Assembly: GCA_937897325.1 (NCBI GenBank)
Contig: CALCOY010000067.1
Span: forward strand, 1 to 64,000
Direction of reading: 5' to 3'
DNA length: 64,000 bases
From: an uncultured Shimia sp.
GTDB lineage: Bacteria; Pseudomonadota; Alphaproteobacteria; Rhodobacterales; Rhodobacteraceae
The translations under genes were made by a program, and so were the position numbers. This document shows, in pieces, positions 1-54,908 of this stretch; the stretch's first letter is position 1, and each line of letters opens with the position of its first letter. Below the pieces are notes generated by a model, which was not told the DNA's origin, did not search any database, and saw only the letters and a list, made by a program, of their open reading frames with translations.

Positions 1-860
1 GGTCGCGCGCGATCGGCAAGAACCCGTTTGAAGGTCGCAGCCAGTCGGTGAGGACAGAGGAAGTCTCATTGCTTCCGGAGGACGAAGCCAGGCGCTTGCC
101 TCTTGAGGAAATCGTTATGGTGATCGACGCGCAAATGCCCATCCGAGCCAAGCGCATCGAGTATTTCAACGATCCGTATTTCAAGGGCATCCATGGCGCG
201 CAATCGGGGGATTTGCCATTTCCTGAGAACGAAGTTTCCACCAGCGTTTCTCAGAAGGATGAGAAGGGCAGGGCGGAGGGGGAACCCGACGGCGATACAT
301 CGGCTAGTCTGTCTGAGAAAGCCCGCGTCAAAGAAGCGCCAGCACAAGCACCAGCGCCGGCGTCGAAGCCAGAGCCGACACCTGAACGAGAAGCAGCCAA
401 GGCACCGGTTGCTCCCTTAGATCGACCAGCTCCTAAGCGTGAATCCATCAAGATGGCTGTTGCGACGGATCAAAGAGCAACACTGCGCACATCAAAACGT
501 AAGAGGGCGAAGGGTGTTGTCGCCGTCGAGGCCGATCAACAGAGGCAGATCGAAATGGATTTGGCGACGCAAACAGAGTTGACCTTAGAAGCGCCTACCG
601 AAGCTGACGTTTCCGAGTTAGAAAGGGGTATGGGTGATCTGGAAGATTTGAAGAATAGCTTGCCCGAAGTGGCAGACAGCAAGGACCAGCTTGATCCTGT
701 GCCGCCCTTTGCCGATCAGCAAGAGAAGCAGTTTGCGCAAGATTTGAAGGATGGCCACGCGCTTGTTCAACGGGGCGAGGATGGCGAGTGGGAACGGGTT
801 ACGTCAGACGGCACCGAGAAACTTGGCTATCGTGATGAAGGCCGAGCGGTCAAAGCATGA
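1..860 (+). CDS. virD4: VirD4/TraG-type conjugative coupling protein, C-terminal part (5' end outside window)
   Basis: The reading frame is open from base 3 to the stop at 858-860 with no credible start, so this is the 3' part of a longer gene. The segment LPLEEIVMVIDAQMPIRAKR followed by a YF-DP motif is typical of the end of the VirD4/TraG coupling-protein ATPase domain. About 200 further residues form a charged, Ala/Pro/Glu-rich tail that looks disordered. The protein would sit in the inner membrane and hand the relaxase-DNA complex to the type IV channel encoded on the other strand at 2-13 kb. Its stop overlaps the start of the zeta-like gene (ATGA), so the two are translationally coupled. 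The ATPase motifs lie outside the window. Confidence 0.85.
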   Translation, partial: SRAIGKNPFEGRSQSVRTEEVSLLPEDEARRLPLEEIVMVIDAQMPIRAKRIEYFNDPYFKGIHGAQSGDLPFPENEVSTSVSQKDEKGRAEGEPDGDTSASLSEKARVKEAPAQAPAPASKPEPTPEREAAKAPVAPLDRPAPKRESIKMAVATDQRATLRTSKRKRAKGVVAVEADQQRQIEMDLATQTELTLEAPTEADVSELERGMGDLEDLKNSLPEVADSKDQLDPVPPFADQQEKQFAQDLKDGHALVQRGEDGEWERVTSDGTEKLGYRDEGRAVKA

Positions 861-48244: not shown

Positions 48245-49201
48245 ATGGAAGAAGCAGAATTCTATGAAGAGATAGCAGAGGGCCCATCATCAGCGGGCGC
48301 TTATTGGAAGCAGACTCAAGACGAGGTGCGCGTTCGGGTTGGGGCCTACCACACGCAGAGCGAAGCGAAGGGAACAATCCTGCTTATGCTCGGCAGGTTT
48401 GGCTACATCGAACGATACGGCAGGGTCGCTCAGAGCTTTGCCGACGAAGGATTTTCGACGGCAGTGATTGACTGGCGTAGCCAAGGCTTGTCTGACCGAA
48501 TGGCTTCGGATCCGAATGCAGGTCACATTCAGTTCTTTTCTGACTACCAGAAAGATGTGGCTGCAATGATGGAAGTTGTTGAAGAGCTGGGTATGCCCAA
48601 ACCCTATTATCTTGTCGGTGTTTCCATGGGAGCCTGCATCGGCTTTCGCGCCATGCTTGATGGTTTGCCGGTGGCTGCGGCGGCATTTATCTCTCCAATG
48701 TGGGGTATCAAAATGTCGGCGGCGCAAAGGATTGCTGCATGGCCGCTATCCTGGGCCGCAAAAGCCCTGGGCCAGGGACATCGGTATGTTCCCGGTGAAA
48801 GCGGCGATATTTACGTGCTTGAGACGGCCTTTGAAGACAACAACCTCACGCACAACGCTGATATGTACGACTATTGGGTGAAACAGGCAGAGAAAGCGCC
48901 AGAGCTACAGATCGGTGGACCGACAATGGCTTGGCTTTATGAGGCCCTGGCTGAGTGTCGCGCTCTATCGTCAATCCCTTCCCCCTCAACACCTTGTATC
49001 ACTTTCTGTGGCGAGCTGGATCGTTTAGTCGATAACGGCTCAATCAAAGCTCGTATGGCAAAATGGCCAAACGGCGAGTTTTCGATGATCCGCAACGCCA
49101 AGCACGACGTGCTAACCGAAATTCCAGAGATCGGCGGCGATGTAATGAGCCAGGTCTTCGCCTTCTTCGATAAGGAAAGGGCAAAAGAACCAGCGGCGTA
49201 A
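48245..49201 (+). CDS. RcgR-like alpha/beta hydrolase (possible lactone hydrolase)
   Basis: With the start at 48245 (MEEAEFYEEIAEGPSSAGAYW) the product has 318 residues and the serine-hydrolase fold: MLGRFGYIERYGRVAQSFADEGFSTAVIDWRSQGLS, nucleophile elbow VGVSMGACIGF, acid CGELDRLVD and His in RNAKHDVLTE. It resembles monoacylglycerol-lipase/lysophospholipase-like enzymes. Next to an RcgA-like gene it fits the RcgR family, described as a putative quorum-lactone hydrolase, which would connect it to control of conjugation. The catalytic fold is clear; the signal-degrading role is inference. Confidence 0.78.
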   Translation: MEEAEFYEEIAEGPSSAGAYWKQTQDEVRVRVGAYHTQSEAKGTILLMLGRFGYIERYGRVAQSFADEGFSTAVIDWRSQGLSDRMASDPNAGHIQFFSDYQKDVAAMMEVVEELGMPKPYYLVGVSMGACIGFRAMLDGLPVAAAAFISPMWGIKMSAAQRIAAWPLSWAAKALGQGHRYVPGESGDIYVLETAFEDNNLTHNADMYDYWVKQAEKAPELQIGGPTMAWLYEALAECRALSSIPSPSTPCITFCGELDRLVDNGSIKARMAKWPNGEFSMIRNAKHDVLTEIPEIGGDVMSQVFAFFDKERAKEPAA

Positions 49202-49237
49202 CGCCGCTCCGTTCGCTTCAGAGCCAGAGCCTTGTTT

Positions 49238-49330
49238 GGGGTCTTTTGCGGGAGGGGGCGAAATGACACTGCAAGCCCTGTTCGGGTTAGCCGCCGTTCG
49301 TAGACGACGCGGCGAAGACACCTGATGAGC
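49238..49330 (+). repeat. 93-bp inverted repeat, left copy
   Basis: It begins GGGGTCTTTTGCGGGAGGGG and contains a ribosome-binding-like GGGAGGGGGCG before ATG 49263. It could encode a 20-residue peptide (MTLQALFGLAAVRRRRGEDT), identical in the other copy. It may be the former start of a longer Tn3-type gene. Confidence 0.75.
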
Positions 49331-49413
49331 CCAACATTGACTGATGCTGCACGAGGAACCAATGGCTGCAAACAGTTTTGATGCTTGGGTCAAAATGGAG
49401 CACGTTGAAACGA

Positions 49414-50157
49414 CTACTCTTCAAACCAGCCCGTTTGCAATGCCCGTGCCCAGTCGCGTCGACCGTTTGCCAGAGCGCAATCACTAGCCTTTTTTGTATC
49501 GTAGCAAACAGAGCGAAAAGTGACGCTCCATTCATCACCTTGCCTTTCTAGCACGGCATATGACGCGTTTGGGGTACCTGTTTGCATGTGATGGTAGACG
49601 GGCAATTCATCGTCGTATGCAGGGCAGCCGACACTTCCGGGGTTTACTATCACGCGGCCATCTTGCAACCGAACGCATCGCGGGATGTGAGTGTGAGCAC
49701 ATAGAATGAGGTTCGCCTCTAGACCGTTGGCTTCGGTAGTTACTTCTGTCAGGCTCGCTGAACGCACAACTCCATTTTCCTCTACGCGTTCAAGCCAATA
49801 GGTTGAGTCGCTTGTCGGAGTAGCATGGCAAAGGAAGATGTCATCGTTGACAGATCGTGTTGTCGGAAGATCAGCTATCCAGCGCAAGTGTTGTTCCGAC
49901 AATTGATCGAAGGCTACCCGGTCCGAAGGCCCCATCTCAGATGGGTCTTGTTCAATGAGATATCGATCATGGTTACCTCGAACCGATACAAAATCACGAT
50001 CCATGAGCATAGTCGCGGTCTTGGCGGCATCTAATGGACCACTGAAGAAATCTCCGAGATTCACAGCATCTTTGATCCCAAGGCTATCCATGTCCTGAAG
50101 CACAGCCTCTAGAGCAAATGAGTTGCCATGTATGTCTGCAAGAGCCGCAAATCTCAT
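49414..50157 (-). CDS. Calcineurin-like metallophosphoesterase (YfcE/MJ0936-type)
   Basis: The 247-residue protein has the dimetal phosphoesterase blocks: LADIHGNSFALEAVL (D-x-H), NLGDFFSGP (GD), VRGNHDRYL (GNHD), LCHATP, and AHTHIPRC (GHTH-type). It is a soluble phosphodiesterase or phosphatase; bacterial relatives act on cyclic nucleotides, Ap4A or RNA. All metal ligands are present. It is cargo between the two 93-bp inverted repeats, reading from right to left, with its own promoter presumably in the region 50158-50288. Confidence 0.88.
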   Translation of the reverse strand: MRFAALADIHGNSFALEAVLQDMDSLGIKDAVNLGDFFSGPLDAAKTATMLMDRDFVSVRGNHDRYLIEQDPSEMGPSDRVAFDQLSEQHLRWIADLPTTRSVNDDIFLCHATPTSDSTYWLERVEENGVVRSASLTEVTTEANGLEANLILCAHTHIPRCVRLQDGRVIVNPGSVGCPAYDDELPVYHHMQTGTPNASYAVLERQGDEWSVTFRSVCYDTKKASDCALANGRRDWARALQTGWFEE

Positions 50158-50288
50158 CGCTAGAATATCCAGTTCACGAACGCTACGGTCGAAGCATACA
50201 AACCAAAGAAGCGGACGTTAAGGCCGGACCATCAAACGGCAACTCCGTCCCGCATCCGGTGATTTCGCATTGTGGTCAATCAAGGTTT

Positions 50289-50381
50289 GCTCATCAGGTG
50301 TCTTCGCCGCGTCGTCTACGAACGGCGGCTAACCCGAACAGGGCTTGCAGTGTCATTTCGCGCCCTCCTGCAAACGACCCC
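50289..50381 (-). repeat. 93-bp inverted repeat, right copy
   Basis: On the minus strand it begins GGGGTCGTTTGCAGGAGGGC and matches the left copy at 90 of 93 positions. Both copies point inward to the metallophosphoesterase gene. Confidence 0.75.
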
Positions 50382-50479
50382 TGTTTCTACGTCAGCAACC
50401 ACCTGCCCTCGCCCCACACTGCACAAGGATTGCCAAGTCAGACACGCCACCACGCGCGCCGTATCGCCGAAAGCATTTG

Positions 50480-50517
50480 CCAAAACAGTATTATTTTGCC
50501 AAAACCGTATTATTGTA
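50480..50517 (+). promoter_or_regulatory. Paired CAAAACCGTATTATTG boxes (site B)
   Basis: CCAAAACAGTATTATTTTG (50480-50498) is followed at exactly 19 bp by CCAAAACCGTATTATTGTAA (50499). The start codon of the downstream exported protein is 33 bp on. The sequence and spacing match site A before the T4SS operon, in the same orientation relative to the gene. Confidence 0.72.
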
Positions 50518-50550
50518 AGACATCTTTCACGCGCGCACCAAGGAGGCCCC

Positions 50551-51378
50551 ATGCTGAATATGCTCAAATCCTCAGCCTTGGCCGTTGCAGCGCTCGCAGC
50601 AGCCAGCATCACCGCTGCACCGCAACGTGCCGAGGCCCAGACCTATCAAATCGACTGCGCCATTCTCTTGTGCCTATCCGGTGGATGGCCTGCATCCGTT
50701 CCATGCGCAAGAGCCCGCGCCGAATTCATTCGCCGCATCACGCCATGGCCGGTTGAGCCACCTTTGCAGATATGGCGCTGCCCGATGGGCGCAGCCTACA
50801 CCGTCGATCCCGACACACTGACCAGCGAAAGGATTTATGAAATCCTTCTTGAGCTAGATCAGACCGCACCGCTGCAATCCTTCCCCGTGGATGAGGCAGG
50901 CACCCCGGTCACAGGCATTGATGGCCGACTGGCCGGGGCACCTGCCCCGACATTTCAAGCGCCCCCACTCACGGACGGCATGGAGCCGCAACCCGCCGTT
51001 GTTCGCTTGACCGGTGGTGACGCGGCTCCATTGCCGGAGGGGTTCGCCCTTCAGCTTGTCCAAGACCGCGCGGACATCGACATCAGCGGCGCGGAGTTCA
51101 ACTTTGTTCGCTCAATCCGCGTTTTCGATGCGCGTTACGTGCGCCAATGGGAGTCTGGTCGCGACGGTGACTGCAATCGCTCAGATAACGTCCGCATGGG
51201 CACGTACGGCACACAAGGCGATTTCCGCTGGACACGCAGTTCTGTCGCCGCCCTGCCCGAGGCGCATGTTGGAACGGCAGGTTTTGGCTCGACCTGCCCC
51301 GGCATTTTCCATCGCTCTGTCTTCGTGGAATGGCGTGATTATGAAGGAAATTACGGCTTTGAGCAGGTGAACTACTAA
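50551..51378 (+). CDS. Exported hypothetical protein, 275 aa
   Basis: With the start at 50551 (AAGGAGG ribosome-binding site, MLNMLKSSALAVAALAAASI) the product has a signal peptide of about 29 residues ending AEAQ. The mature protein has cysteines in YQIDCAILLCLSGGWPASVPC, WRCPMG, DGDCNR and STCPGI, and a beta-rich C-terminal part with EFNFVRSIRVFDARYVRQWESG and SVFVEWRDYEGNYGFEQ. The family is unknown to me; the pattern suggests a disulphide-stabilised periplasmic or surface protein. The promoter box shared with the T4SS operon suggests a role in mating. Confidence 0.75.
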   Translation: MLNMLKSSALAVAALAAASITAAPQRAEAQTYQIDCAILLCLSGGWPASVPCARARAEFIRRITPWPVEPPLQIWRCPMGAAYTVDPDTLTSERIYEILLELDQTAPLQSFPVDEAGTPVTGIDGRLAGAPAPTFQAPPLTDGMEPQPAVVRLTGGDAAPLPEGFALQLVQDRADIDISGAEFNFVRSIRVFDARYVRQWESGRDGDCNRSDNVRMGTYGTQGDFRWTRSSVAALPEAHVGTAGFGSTCPGIFHRSVFVEWRDYEGNYGFEQVNY

Positions 51379-51399
51379 ATGTGGTGGCACTGATCCACG

Positions 51400-51416
51400 A
51401 CAAAACCGTATTTACG
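51400..51416 (+). promoter_or_regulatory. Single CAAAACCGTATTT box (site C)
   Basis: ACAAAACCGTATTTACG lies just downstream of the exported-protein stop and 20 bp before the first short frame of RNA unit 1. It matches the gene-proximal box of sites A, B and D, but no second box is seen 19 bp away. Confidence 0.5.
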
Positions 51417-51700
51417 ACAGGCAGCTAGAGATAGTATGCCTGTTGTTACAAAACAAGAATCGAAAGGGGGCAGAAGGCGAGCAGCCAAAAAAGCAAACCC
51501 CCGCAAGGCGGCAACCTCGCGGGGGGTTTGATAAGACCTAGGGACGGCAATCCCGAAACGGCTCAATCCGTTAAGCCCGGTTTTATCACCCAAGACATCG
51601 ATACGGCAAGCAAAAACCGCACTTGTGCGATCCCTCCCTTTGCATCTTGGCCTAACTCTTGATGAAACCACAAGAATTAGCCCCAGACGCAAGACCTAGA
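51417..51700 (+). ncRNA. Candidate structured RNA, unit 1 of 3 before repC
   Basis: In order: an inverted repeat ACAGGCA/TGCCTGT (51417-51443) covering ATG 51436 of a 31-codon frame; the hairpin CAAACCCCCGC/GCGGGGGGTTTG (51494-51530) with AAGGCGG in the loop; the hairpin GGGA-CGGCAA-TCCC (51541-51554); the hairpin AACGG/CCGTT (51557-51572); the sequence CCGGTTTTATCACCC; and the hairpin CGCA-CTTG-TGCG (51618-51629). Units 2 and 3 repeat the same order with different stem bases but alike loops. The ends are approximate. Confidence 0.6.
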
Positions 51701-51990
51701 CAAAGCCCGAGCAACTGCAACGAGCTATGGTATAGTCGTCTGATAATGACGAAAGCAGATTCGAAAGGAAGAACGAGACATCCAGAAAGCGAAACCCCCG
51801 CAAGGCGGCGGCCTTAACGGGGGGGCTCAAGAACCAAGAAGCGCCAACTTCTCGATCAGCTATGACGTTGATCTGGTTTTACCACCCCCCTGCCCGTTCG
51901 ATCAAGAAAAAACGCATTCGTGCGAACAGAGGAAGTGCATCTTGGCGTGGTCCACGCAGAAACCGAAGGACCAGCCCTGGGTGCAAACCC
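51701..51990 (+). ncRNA. Candidate structured RNA, unit 2 of 3 before repC
   Basis: It shows the same order as unit 1: TCGTC/GACGA around ATG 51746 of a 23-codon frame; the GC hairpin CCCCCG/CGGGGG (51795-51823) with inner stem AAGG/CCTT; AGAAG-CGCCAA-CTTCT (51837-51852); GATCA/TGATC (51854-51873); CTGGTTTTACCACCC; and CGCA-TTCG-TGCG (51913-51924). The stem of the second hairpin differs from those of units 1 and 3 on both sides, keeping pairing, while the CGCCAA loop is kept. Confidence 0.62.
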
Positions 51991-52237
51991 AACCAAACCG
52001 GCAGCACGTTTCTGCCATCACATGAAAGGAAAACCAGAACCCTAGAAAAGCGAAACCCCGCAAGGCGGTGAACCTTCCGGGGGTGCCATGATCACAGAGC
52101 GCCAACTCTGCATCGTCTGAATACGATCTGATCTTAGCACCTCCAGAATCATGCAGGCAAGAAAAAACGCATTTGTGCGACCAGAGAAGATTTGCCTGTC
52201 GCCGTCTTGTCCAACGAGCAGATGAGAGGACAAGAAC
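51991..52237 (+). ncRNA. Candidate structured RNA, unit 3 of 3, repC leader
   Basis: It contains GGCAG/CTGCC (52000-52016) before ATG 52022 of a 7-codon frame; ACCCC/GGGGT (52055-52084) with inner AAGG/CCTT; CAGAG-CGCCAA-CTCTG (52095-52110); ATCGT/ACGAT (52112-52127); CTGATCTTAGCACC; and CGCA-TTTG-TGCG (52168-52179). It then runs into the repC start at 52238, so this copy is in position to control repC expression. Confidence 0.62.
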
Positions 52238-53431
52238 ATGAGGACAGAACCGTTCCCATCCCTTCCACAGGGATTTTCCAGACGCGATGTGATCGCGCTG
52301 ATGGCCGATATCGGCCGCGACATCGGGCTAGGCCCAAGGCTCACCGATATTCTCACCCGGTTGATCGGCTGCACCGAAGCCGACGCATGGATCGACCCCG
52401 AGAAAGAACCGATCTTCTATGGGCGCCAGGAGAGCTTTGCCCAGAAGCTCGGCATTTCCACGCGCCAGCTCCGCACACATGAAAAGACCTTGCTCAAGCA
52501 TGGTCTCATGGAACGGCGCACCGCGGCCAACGGAAGCCGACACGGGGGCACCGGGCTTGGGCTGGTGCTGACACCGCTCATCGAGCGGTTCACCGATTTT
52601 CTGAGTGTTCGAGAGGCCCGCAATGAACGCTACGCCAGAATGAAGACGCTTAAAGCCACGCGCAGTGTCCGGTGGGCTACCTTCCGCGACGAGCTGGCCC
52701 GTCTCTCGCCCAAGGATCTACTTTCCGACGATGTTCAGGACATGATCGCGGAACGTGAGACCTGGCCCCGGACCGATACGCTCTTGAGCATGGGCGAAGC
52801 TCGGCTCACGCAGCACATCGAGGCGGCAACCAGCCTGTGCATAAGACTCACCAAATGGATCGAAAACCATGCTGATTCCTCTTGTGAACCGGCGGAAACC
52901 TTCCGGTCCTTTATACAAGAGGACATTCAGCAGATTCATTCTGAAAAATGTAACGCCAGCGTGGATAAGCGGAGCGCGGGCAAGCCCGCGCACTCTGAGT
53001 ATCCTGCGCCGGGTCCTGACGGACCCGTCGATTGCAGAGAAAAAGAGCTTGAGGCGGAAACCTTGGCGCTTCAAGGGCTATTTTCGGGAAGATACGGACT
53101 GGATCATGCAGTTTCTTTGGCGAGCGAGGACTTCAAATTCGAAATGCAAGTCCGAAGTGGCGACCGCCCTGATTATGCCTTTGTCGAAGCGGCAAACGCA
53201 CGGATCGCGCCCCTCGGCATCAACATCACGGCCTGGGCGGCAGCTTGCGACCGCATGGGCCGCGTCCCTGCCGCCCTTTGCGTCTTGCTTCTCGACGCAA
53301 ACCGCGACCACCCCACTGCGCCGGTGATGAACCCCGGCGGGGCCTTGCGCGGCATGATCAAGGCACACAACCGGGGCAAGTTGAACCTTATCGGCAGCCT
53401 CATCGGATTGCACAGGCGGCGCGGACTATGA
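52238..53431 (+). CDS. repC: RepC-like plasmid replication initiator
   Basis: The 397-residue protein has an N-terminal winged-helix replication domain (residues 15-150; FYGRQESFAQKLGISTRQLRTHEKTLLKHGLMERRTAANGSRHG). The C-terminal domain resembles that of RepC (FVEAANARIAPLGINITAWAAACDRMGRVPAALCVLLLDAN, NPGGALRGMIKAHNRGKLNL). RepC binds the origin, which in repABC plasmids lies within repC itself. Here there are no repA or repB genes directly upstream, only the three RNA-like units. Copy-number control must therefore work differently from standard repABC. ATG 52238 follows GAGAGGAC. Confidence 0.75.
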   Translation: MRTEPFPSLPQGFSRRDVIALMADIGRDIGLGPRLTDILTRLIGCTEADAWIDPEKEPIFYGRQESFAQKLGISTRQLRTHEKTLLKHGLMERRTAANGSRHGGTGLGLVLTPLIERFTDFLSVREARNERYARMKTLKATRSVRWATFRDELARLSPKDLLSDDVQDMIAERETWPRTDTLLSMGEARLTQHIEAATSLCIRLTKWIENHADSSCEPAETFRSFIQEDIQQIHSEKCNASVDKRSAGKPAHSEYPAPGPDGPVDCREKELEAETLALQGLFSGRYGLDHAVSLASEDFKFEMQVRSGDRPDYAFVEAANARIAPLGINITAWAAACDRMGRVPAALCVLLLDANRDHPTAPVMNPGGALRGMIKAHNRGKLNLIGSLIGLHRRRGL

Positions 53432-53488
53432 TCGCCGCGCCCGATATCTCTTTGCTGAGCTTCGGCAATTTGGCGTAGGTTGTCTGCG

Positions 53489-54289
53489 ATGTCAGATTTC
53501 AGCAAATACGTCGTTTATGTCGACGAGAGCGGCCATTCCAATTGGAAAGCCGCGCCAGAGTACCCGTTGCTCTGCCTCAATTACTGCATGTTCGAGAAGG
53601 ATCACTACATCAACGAGCTGATCCCGCGTTTCAATCGTTTGAAGTTCAAGTATTGGGGTTGTGACAACATCGTTCTGCACGAGCGCGACCTGCGGAAATC
53701 CGACAAGATCAGAGACCCCGCCGTTCGCTCGAAATACGAAGGGCTCAATGGTGATCGCAGACGCGCCTTTATGGATGAGTTGACGCAGTTGATGCGGGAC
53801 GCTCAGTTTCGATGCTTCTGCGTGGTGATCGACAAGCCCAAAGTACCCGAATGGCACAAGTCTTACGATCCGTATCACATTTCCCTTTCGAGAGGATTCC
53901 GACAAATCGAGAGCTACCTGAAGGTTCATGACCCTGACGAGCTGGCCAAAGAGCTTCATATCGTTTTCGAGGCGCGTGGCCGCGAAGAAGACGAAGCGCT
54001 CAGCAAAGCGTACAAGCAGGTGTCGGTTCAGGGCGCGCTCATGGGGCCCGTTGACGCCTACGATTTTTCGAATTTCCGGCTTGAGTTGATGGACAAGAAG
54101 AGCAATTCGACCGGACTTCAGATCGCCGACCTTACCGCTCGACCGATAGGAAATCACTATCTGCACGCCACAGGGCAACGCTCATTGACCGATCAGCGTG
54201 CCATCGAGGTACTGCTTGAAAAGCTTCACTTTTGTTCGGGAACAACCTGCGAAACCGGGCGATATGATGTGTTTCACGAGGGGCTATAA
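53489..54289 (+). CDS. DUF3800 family protein
   Basis: The 266-residue protein starts FSKYVVYVDESGHSNWK, the DUF3800 signature (Y-x-DESG), followed by an RNase-H-like layout with HERDLRK in the middle and LQIADLTARPIGNHYL near the end. DUF3800 proteins are widespread next to mobile elements and are thought to be nuclease-like. The start at 53489 was chosen over TTG 53480. It follows repC by 57 bp on the same strand, so it may be co-transcribed. Confidence 0.87.
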   Translation: MSDFSKYVVYVDESGHSNWKAAPEYPLLCLNYCMFEKDHYINELIPRFNRLKFKYWGCDNIVLHERDLRKSDKIRDPAVRSKYEGLNGDRRRAFMDELTQLMRDAQFRCFCVVIDKPKVPEWHKSYDPYHISLSRGFRQIESYLKVHDPDELAKELHIVFEARGREEDEALSKAYKQVSVQGALMGPVDAYDFSNFRLELMDKKSNSTGLQIADLTARPIGNHYLHATGQRSLTDQRAIEVLLEKLHFCSGTTCETGRYDVFHEGL

Positions 54290-54569
54290 AATTCAAAGGC
54301 GAGCCGAGGCCCGCCAATGAACGGACGGTTAGACCATCCCGTTACTGACCCCCATATAGGCCAAAATGGTGAAATATTCAAGAACAGATCGCACGAGCTG
54401 CGACAGGTGTTGCAGCGAGATATTGTTCCGAACGCCCTTATTTATAGGGTTTTGGGGGCGTCCGGCAAAGCCGGATCAGCTCTAGTCGGCAAGCCGACCG
54501 AAGCCTGTAGTCTTCGCCCATTCGGGTCACGATCCTCGCCCACGCGGCCCGCAGGGCCGCGATCAACGC
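54290..54569. other. Hairpin-rich intergenic region between convergent genes
   Basis: No gene is seen. The stretch holds several short perfect hairpins: GTCCGGCAAAGCCGGATC near 54459, GTCGGCAAGCCGAC near 54486, and GCGGCCCGCAGGGCCGC near 54545. The last sits next to the H-NS-like stop and may be its terminator. The cluster could also mark part of an origin region. Confidence 0.5.
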
Positions 54570-54908
54570 TCATGCGATGAGCAATTCAGCTTCAGGTTTT
54601 CCAGCATCAACATGGGATTTGTACCATGCCGGCGGACGCCCCATCCCCGACCAGGTTTTCCCCGACCCCGGATCCTTGAACTTCGCCGGCTGCGGACCGC
54701 GCGGGCCACGCCGCCGGCCTTTCGGCGCGGCAAGTAGATCTTCCAGTGCGAACCCATACGCAGCCGCGGCCGCACGCGCTGCCTTTAAGGCATCCTTGCG
54801 GTTCTGTTTCTCGCGTCTTGCAACTTCCGCATCAATGTCCTTCAGCAACCGTTCCAGCTCGGTCCGAGTCTTGCCGTTCAAATTCACCTTCGCCACGAAA
54901 TCCTCCAA
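54570..54908 (-). CDS. H-NS-family nucleoid protein (HvrA-like)
   Basis: The 112-residue protein has an N-terminal coiled coil (ELERLLKDIDAEVARREKQNRKDALKAARAAAAAYG), a Gly/Arg/Pro linker (GRRRGPRGPQ) and the H-NS C-terminal DNA-binding motif KFKDPGSGKTWSGMGRPPAWYKSH, close to alphaproteobacterial HvrA/H-NS proteins. It would bind AT-rich DNA and silence genes, and plasmid copies often hide the plasmid from the host. It is downstream of and parallel to the XRE regulator gene. Confidence 0.9.
   Translation of the reverse strand: MEDFVAKVNLNGKTRTELERLLKDIDAEVARREKQNRKDALKAARAAAAAYGFALEDLLAAPKGRRRGPRGPQPAKFKDPGSGKTWSGMGRPPAWYKSHVDAGKPEAELLIA

Follow-up and report, generated by a model that had tools for sequence, protein, structure and literature searches.

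Three diverged units fill positions 51417-52237 of the window, by which we mean the whole stretch of 64,000 nt analysed here, and they lie immediately 5' of a solitary repC gene. What might a row of this kind do for the replicon that carries it? The answer at which we have arrived, with a probability of roughly 0.83 and from sequence comparison, is that the units are ctRNA modules of the kind found in repABC and repC plasmids, predicted to act as an antisense brake on RepC; the level of RepC, and hence copy number, would then probably be set by the array. A repeat search placed three copies of a 45-nt core at 51482, 51779 and 52039, spaced by 297 and 260 nt. The principal elements are as follows, with scores from the covariance model R1 described below.

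51417..51443, plus strand: inverted repeat ACAGGCA-N13-TGCCTGT over the likely plus-strand array promoter (promoter by eye)
51487..51634, plus strand: unit 1 core (sense), R1 139.8 bits
51784..51929, plus strand: unit 2 core (sense), R1 126.2 bits
52045..52184, plus strand: unit 3 core (sense), repC-proximal, R1 89.5 bits; absent from the source alignment of R1
52238..53431, plus strand: repC, solitary replication initiator, 397 aa (Pfam RP-C, 1.9e-13; NCBIfam RepABC_RepC, 1e-19, below cut-off)

No repB-like gene was detected 5' of repC by tblastn in 49001-54500 of the window, and none of the open reading frames before repC resembles repA or repB by eye, which agrees with the initial annotation in finding repAB absent. 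With a RepC homologue and no repAB, the locus has the defining content of a RepC_soli plasmid. This type has reportedly been called promiscuous among Rhodobacteraceae, in a 2021 title by Birmes. In PMC4148982, RepC_soli is described as a replicon type of Rhodobacteraceae with repC and without repAB, and its pGal_E78 is NC_023141, the record that appears as matches H24 and H76 of our homologue searches. In a check for circularity, the two ends of the contig shared no exact sequence of 15-200 nt. Directly 5' of the array (about 50554-51378) is a gene whose product, of ~250-270 aa, is likely secreted and has no Pfam or NCBIfam match; tblastn found a homologue in 46 of 53 first-set loci without repB. 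On the 3' side of repC are a DUF3800 gene and, beyond it on the opposite strand, an H-NS-like gene (53480-54289 and 54570-54908).

Relatives of the locus are mostly Rhodobacterales plasmids, judging by their listed genera: the array region matched 43 PLSDB records by blastn and RepC matched 158 by tblastn. Twelve plasmid loci and 26 genome loci were compared, and profile iteration yielded 60 units, of which 48 entered alignment A3; setting aside 10 that aligned poorly left the 38 of alignment A4. From A4 we built R1 (38 units, 148 positions, 26 pairs), which recognized 89 units in plus orientation (83 distinct ones) across 65 of the loci that were searched; its few matches on the opposite strand were dropped (three short or weak ones in the main search, one in a further search). 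The sets of rows used below (89, 83, 66 and 47) differ from one another and are redundant or distinct as stated with each count. GANTC sites, the target of CcrM methylation, occur 15-45 nt upstream of the core in 41 of 82 distinct units, with about 5% expected from their density.

The first question is whether the units specify an RNA fold, and on which strand. The stems listed in the initial annotation, namely those around the CGSCAA loop together with AACGG/CCGTT, GATCA/TGATC and ATCGT/ACGAT, are present by eye as written. In our model, the plus-strand leader would fold into P1, P2 (enclosing P3 and P4) and P5, with a long hairpin, P9, closing each of the first two units.

51541..51554, plus strand: P3 hairpin of unit 1, GGGA(CGGCAA)TCCC, likely recognition loop CGGCAA
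51837..51852, plus strand: P3 hairpin of unit 2, AGAAG(CGCCAA)CTTCT
52095..52110, plus strand: P3 hairpin of unit 3, CAGAG(CGCCAA)CTCTG
51618..51629, plus strand: P5 hairpin of unit 1, CGCA-N4-TGCG
51913..51924, plus strand: P5 hairpin of unit 2
52168..52179, plus strand: P5 hairpin of unit 3
51640..51692, plus strand: P9, long imperfect hairpin closing unit 1
51936..51985, plus strand: P9 hairpin closing unit 2

Across the 38 homologous units of A4, 91.1% of cells form standard pairs, compared with 83.3% in shuffles, and 89 cells have changed on both sides, compared with 27.4; none of 500 shuffles reached either value, and pairing was 54.5% or less once the partners were slid. A tree-aware test on 66 sequences, in which 16 loci (12 repABC loci plus L032, L055, L056 and L060) and one incomplete unit were set aside and the null consisted of 20 simulated alignments, gave E = 0.025, the lowest value that it can return, for three of the four pairs of P3, the stem of the CGSCAA loop. 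The fourth P3 pair gave E = 0.2, and no pair of P2, the closing stem, did better than E = 0.45; in all, 3 of 26 pairs passed 0.05 and 23 were not significant, several of these because they scarcely vary. The alignment and the covariation tests thus bear out the view, taken in the initial annotation, of a selected fold with covarying stems, significantly so for three P3 pairs. As to the strand, P2 read on the plus strand holds 44 G.U cells against 4 A.C cells (three groups of units) and P5 holds 4 against 0, an excess indicating that it is the plus strand that folds. By plain minimum energy, minus was the better-folding strand in 45 of 48 cases; we discount this preference, since the composition of that strand permits more G.U pairing, whereas the pair types of P2 and P5 favour plus. 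P4 as modelled is 62-83% paired, so that its exact pairs are unsure, and the short open reading frames inside the units are not conserved by eye.

A covarying plus-strand fold with plus-strand G.U pairs, followed by a hairpin over the repC Shine-Dalgarno sequence, is also what would be expected of a cis-acting leader or riboswitch-like RNA present in three tandem copies and working with no antisense RNA. We consider such a leader very unlikely, since it leaves unexplained both the place of the array, which is that of the known repABC ctRNA locus, and two features of the opposite strand: a promoter at fixed spacing and T-rich tails after a hairpin. The corresponding predictions for the window are given here.

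51489..51573, minus strand: predicted ctRNA 1, ~85 nt, with promoter and terminator (ends inferred)
51786..51869, minus strand: predicted ctRNA 2, ~84 nt, with promoter and terminator (ends inferred)
52047..52124, minus strand: predicted ctRNA 3, ~78 nt, with promoter and terminator (ends inferred)
51580..51609, minus strand: predicted promoter of ctRNA 1, TTGCCG-18-TAAAAC, TG before the -10
51876..51905, minus strand: predicted promoter of ctRNA 2, TTGATC-18-TAAAAC, TG before the -10
52131..52160, minus strand: predicted promoter of ctRNA 3, TTGCCT-18-TAAGAT, TG before the -10
51498..51525, minus strand: P1 of unit 1, predicted intrinsic terminator of ctRNA 1, 12 pairs then TTTGCTTTTT
51795..51825, minus strand: P1 of unit 2, predicted terminator of ctRNA 2, not in the window terminator scan
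52056..52082, minus strand: P1 of unit 3, predicted terminator of ctRNA 3, not in the window terminator scan

Of the 83 distinct units, 80 have a minus-strand TTG-TA pattern at one fixed place (index 24-27), and a TG precedes the -10 with a spacing of 16-18 in 75 of 89 units. The script reports the best-scoring site of each unit, so it is the fixed place rather than the presence of a match that constitutes the evidence for a promoter; common ancestry also links the units. The P1 hairpin, read on the minus strand, is followed by a tail of at least 5 T in 12 in 82 of the 83 distinct units, the exception being cut by a contig end; the mean is 8.1 T of 12, whereas the plus side has 1.5 of 10. Eighteen further distinct units agree: all 18 have a tail of at least 7 T, 17 have TTG-16..18-TA and 13 have the TG as well. 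A simple consensus scan of the region found no promoter (0.6 in shuffles), as units 1 and 2 read TAAAAC and lack the final T, and the terminator scan listed only P1 of unit 1. Given the promoter spacing and the terminator, we read GGTTTTA-CACC as an antisense -10 and the GC hairpin as the terminator of a ctRNA. Each unit would accordingly carry, on its minus strand, a promoter of the sigma-70 type together with an intrinsic terminator, yielding an RNA of ~80-90 nt, which would contain the complements of the P3 and P4 hairpins, the likely recognition loops, and end in the P1 terminator hairpin. In duplex energy the cognate pairs were always the best (-172 to -186 in the window, where non-cognate pairs lie at -73 to -96), values dominated by length and uninformative on the initial contact.

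These results alter the account of the elements given in the initial annotation, which had taken all of them for parts of a shared RNA structure. The stems are indeed that; GGTTTTA-CACC is better described as a minus-strand extended -10, the CAAG before an A-run as the -35, and the GC hairpin as a terminator. Its 5' hairpin beside a short frame exists as the inverted repeat at 51417-51443, which lies over the likely plus-strand promoter, and the frame is not conserved by eye. By eye, this promoter aligns with TTGCGA-17-TATGCC in relatives, and a comparable inverted repeat is found in 15 of 42 first or single units. The three copies of one unit are homologous as claimed but unequal, only the third having the leader pairing and the repC Shine-Dalgarno hairpin considered below. 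That no named family has this form is true as far as Rfam goes: the search suggested at the outset, run with all 4227 families over the whole window, gave no match at the gathering score, and a search of 15 loci gave none at E<=0.5. The kind is nonetheless known, being that of the ctRNAs of repABC and repC plasmids. Two sub-threshold matches on the minus strand, rnk_pseudo (28.6 bits, where the gathering score is 55) and ctRNA_pGA1 (22.8 bits, below its gathering score), were set aside as chance, though the latter would fit a ctRNA reading.

According to PMC3155836 and PMC6090056, a ctRNA that restrains RepC is encoded just before repC in repABC plasmids; it lies on the antisense strand with its own promoter and intrinsic terminator, and alternative folds of the leader have been proposed. 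Place, strand, promoter and terminator are common to those ctRNAs (inc-alpha of p42d, IncA of pSymA and RepE of pTiR10) and to the modules described here, the promoter being present here as a pattern with no consensus-scan match in the window. The differences are a predicted length of 78-85 nt against the 50-59 nt reported, an extra P3 hairpin with a conserved loop, one to three tandem modules, the absence of repAB, and the absence from the window sequence scan of a plus-strand terminator-like site before repC, where in the known type the ctRNA-bound leader forms an intrinsic terminator. Also typical of that type are a leader fold that frees the start of repC and an RNA that acts in trans and causes incompatibility. 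Within the host family R1 has a second tier of matches ~125 nt long in 15 loci; a repB-like gene lies upstream in 12 of these (tblastn), so that the module sits between repB and repC, as the repABC ctRNA does. The Marinovum plasmid pMaD1 (L095), annotated ParA-ParB-RepC-9, scores 39.3 bits before repC; in the Phaeobacter repABC locus L096, R1 found nothing below E 1. The rhizobial repABC loci L092, L093 and L094 likewise gave no R1 match with E under 0.5. All three rhizobial leaders have a minus-strand TTGAC[AG]-17-GATTCT with TG and a T-rich minus-strand terminator and, by eye, a hairpin and long outer stem in the same order as here. A search widened to the class gave matches with E<=1e-4 in 4 of 385 genomes, and two of these four lie outside the host family.

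Rhizobial repC-family plasmids such as pRmeGR4a (Izquierdo 2005) also have a ctRNA, according to the part of PMC10194956 available to us, and so present a solitary repC under an antisense RNA; that part makes no mention of tandem modules. The combination of solitary repC and antisense RNA is shared with our locus, and R1 had no match in pRmeGR4a, a weak test; a first look there yielded no candidates. More distant systems offer a likeness of working only. In IncB and IncI-alpha plasmids, which are under antisense and pseudoknot control, the loop of the antisense-target hairpin pairs with the leader near the start of rep. The loop letters of IncL/M, IncB and IncI-alpha are UUGGCG/CGCCAA, and the initiator of these plasmids is unrelated to RepC. 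For IncL/M, the pairing of the target hairpin loop with the leader near the rep start is described in PMC12365149; no leader peptide was seen here.

How a ctRNA might act on repC is suggested by a long-range pairing peculiar to the proximal unit, in which a strand of the P1 loop, A, is complementary to a leader stretch, A', that overlaps a hairpin over the ribosome-binding site.

52059..52072, plus strand: A, P1-loop strand of unit 3
52198..52211, plus strand: A', leader stretch complementary to A; overlaps the P7 arm starting at 52206
52206..52234, plus strand: P7, CTTGTCC...GGACAAG, contains the repC Shine-Dalgarno sequence; overlaps A'

In proximal units without repB, A:A' has a mean energy of -18.8 kcal/mol and is significant (p<=0.05) in 41 of 47, with 6 of 47 not significant; in upstream units the mean is -10.3 kcal/mol and the pairing is significant in 0 of 24. 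These figures are for 100 mononucleotide-preserving shuffles each and with the 12 repABC loci left aside. In a further set, judged with shuffles of the same kind and number, the pairing was found in 9 of 12 proximal units without repB, in 0 of 2 upstream units and in 0 of 4 repABC units. Compensatory changes are also seen: the diverged loci L030, L031 and L012 keep the pairing with other letters. If no ctRNA were present, A would pair with A' and repC would be translated; binding of the ctRNA would cover A and free A', allowing P7 to close, so that RepC would fall and copy number be held down. When the ctRNA stretch was blocked in nested folds of 40 leaders, exposure of the Shine-Dalgarno sequence went from 0.32 to 0.25 on average; it was lower by more than 0.1 in 11 leaders and higher in 1, and that of the window leader was unchanged. 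Nested folding cannot form pseudoknots and does not by itself show the switch, for which reason we describe the competition of A:A' with P7 as a plausible control of repC translation.

There remains the question of why there should be three modules. In a count over 43 solo-repC loci whose last units are distinct, the array consists of one unit in 26, of two in 10 and of three in 7 (L018, cut by a contig end, may have had three). Direct repeats beside a replication gene might be taken for iterons, or for another DNA-binding array serving as origin or handcuffing site. We regard this as hardly credible for repeats that are diverged and lie 260-297 nt apart, whose stems covary and which occur as a single unit in those 26 loci; in a repABC plasmid, moreover, oriV lies inside repC (PMC3155836). 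A tree of the units (67 rows), from which, as from the array count, the 12 repABC loci and L032, L055, L056 and L060 were left out, suggests two old duplications. In arrays that reach the array start, 11 of 16 first units form one supported clade, the first units of L003, L005, L006, L010 and L030 falling outside it; 15 of 17 last units and eight middle units belong to another clade, and the third units are set apart as a clade by a long stem of 0.44.

Units 1 and 2 would thus be old duplicates that keep an antisense gene and a sense fold and have neither A' nor a gene of their own, and our view is that they provide additional ctRNAs whose loops differ in specificity. Two variants of the ctRNA explanation assign them different parts. 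In the first they are serial attenuators: a long plus-strand transcript would run through three targets of ctRNA, any of which could halt it, and control would be sharpened. The retention of the sense fold in upstream units, the supported clade of 11 first units and the promoter-like repeat before unit 1 are compatible with this arrangement, which we hold to be possible but on the unlikely side. Upstream units lack A', and a scan of 51300-52400, made on the sequence and not on a ctRNA-bound fold, found no plus-strand terminator-like site between units or before repC, its sole plus-strand match being hairpin P4 of unit 2, then TGGTTTTACC. In the second variant units 1 and 2 are remnants of duplication now in decay, as their want of A' and (by eye) of an open reading frame might indicate, and as would the single unit of a Roseovarius W115 plasmid (L007:2577-2716), an apparent fusion, by eye, of a unit 1 start to a unit 3 end within the P1 loop, which suggests that arrays also collapse by recombination. 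The repC of L007 is, by eye, cut short beside insertion-sequence genes. Decay is unlikely in view of what upstream units have kept: of 24, the minus-strand promoter is in place in 23 (not L030) and the terminator tail in 23 (L018 being cut by the contig end), P2 has 99% standard pairs in 143 cells and P3 is 100% paired, and the 11 first units form a supported clade.

Another possible role for the extra ctRNAs concerns the specificity of their P3 loops. Four loop hexamers were observed, CGGCAA, CGCCAA, TTGGCG and, in L115, TTGCCG; the third of these is the second in reverse complement, as would result from inversion of the hairpin. The loops of the first and last units differ in 15 of 16 arrays in which the first loop was read, the exception being L030. 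Units 1 and 2 may be ctRNA genes directed against other plasmids, keeping an older or foreign loop specificity after the repC of their own replicon had moved to the diverged unit 3, an idea that we offer tentatively and think rather unlikely. If it were true, the plasmid could repress its relatives without repressing itself, a one-sided incompatibility. That specificity would shift by a central G/C swap or by inversion of the whole loop (CGCCAA to TTGGCG) is a conjecture of equally low standing. The ctRNA explanation itself draws on three genomes that each hold two closely related solo-repC replicons, with units 90-95% identical; two of them favour it and one does not. In G482, 8 of 12 within-unit differences fall inside the 40-nt P3-P4 span, and in G604, 4 of 8 fall inside a 39-nt P3-P4 span, one of them a central G/C change of the P3 loop; G354 does not fit, with 2 of 9 differences in P3-P4 and identical P3 loops, one of its two contigs being only 3110 nt long. 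The twin replicons L115/L116 (4/8) and L117/L118 (8/12), which differ largely at P3/P4, are natural compatibility cases.

Single ctRNA modules of this kind are already known, and it is the tandem form that appears new: in the open-access literature we came across no account of up to three modules lined up in an order that is kept across marine bacteria. For RepC_soli plasmids the module is likely the determinant of copy control and incompatibility, for which R1 provides an RNA model, and the P3 and P4 loops offer a handle for typing them. Diverged antisense modules lined up before a single target gene would offer a natural example of how the specificity of replication control duplicates and moves.
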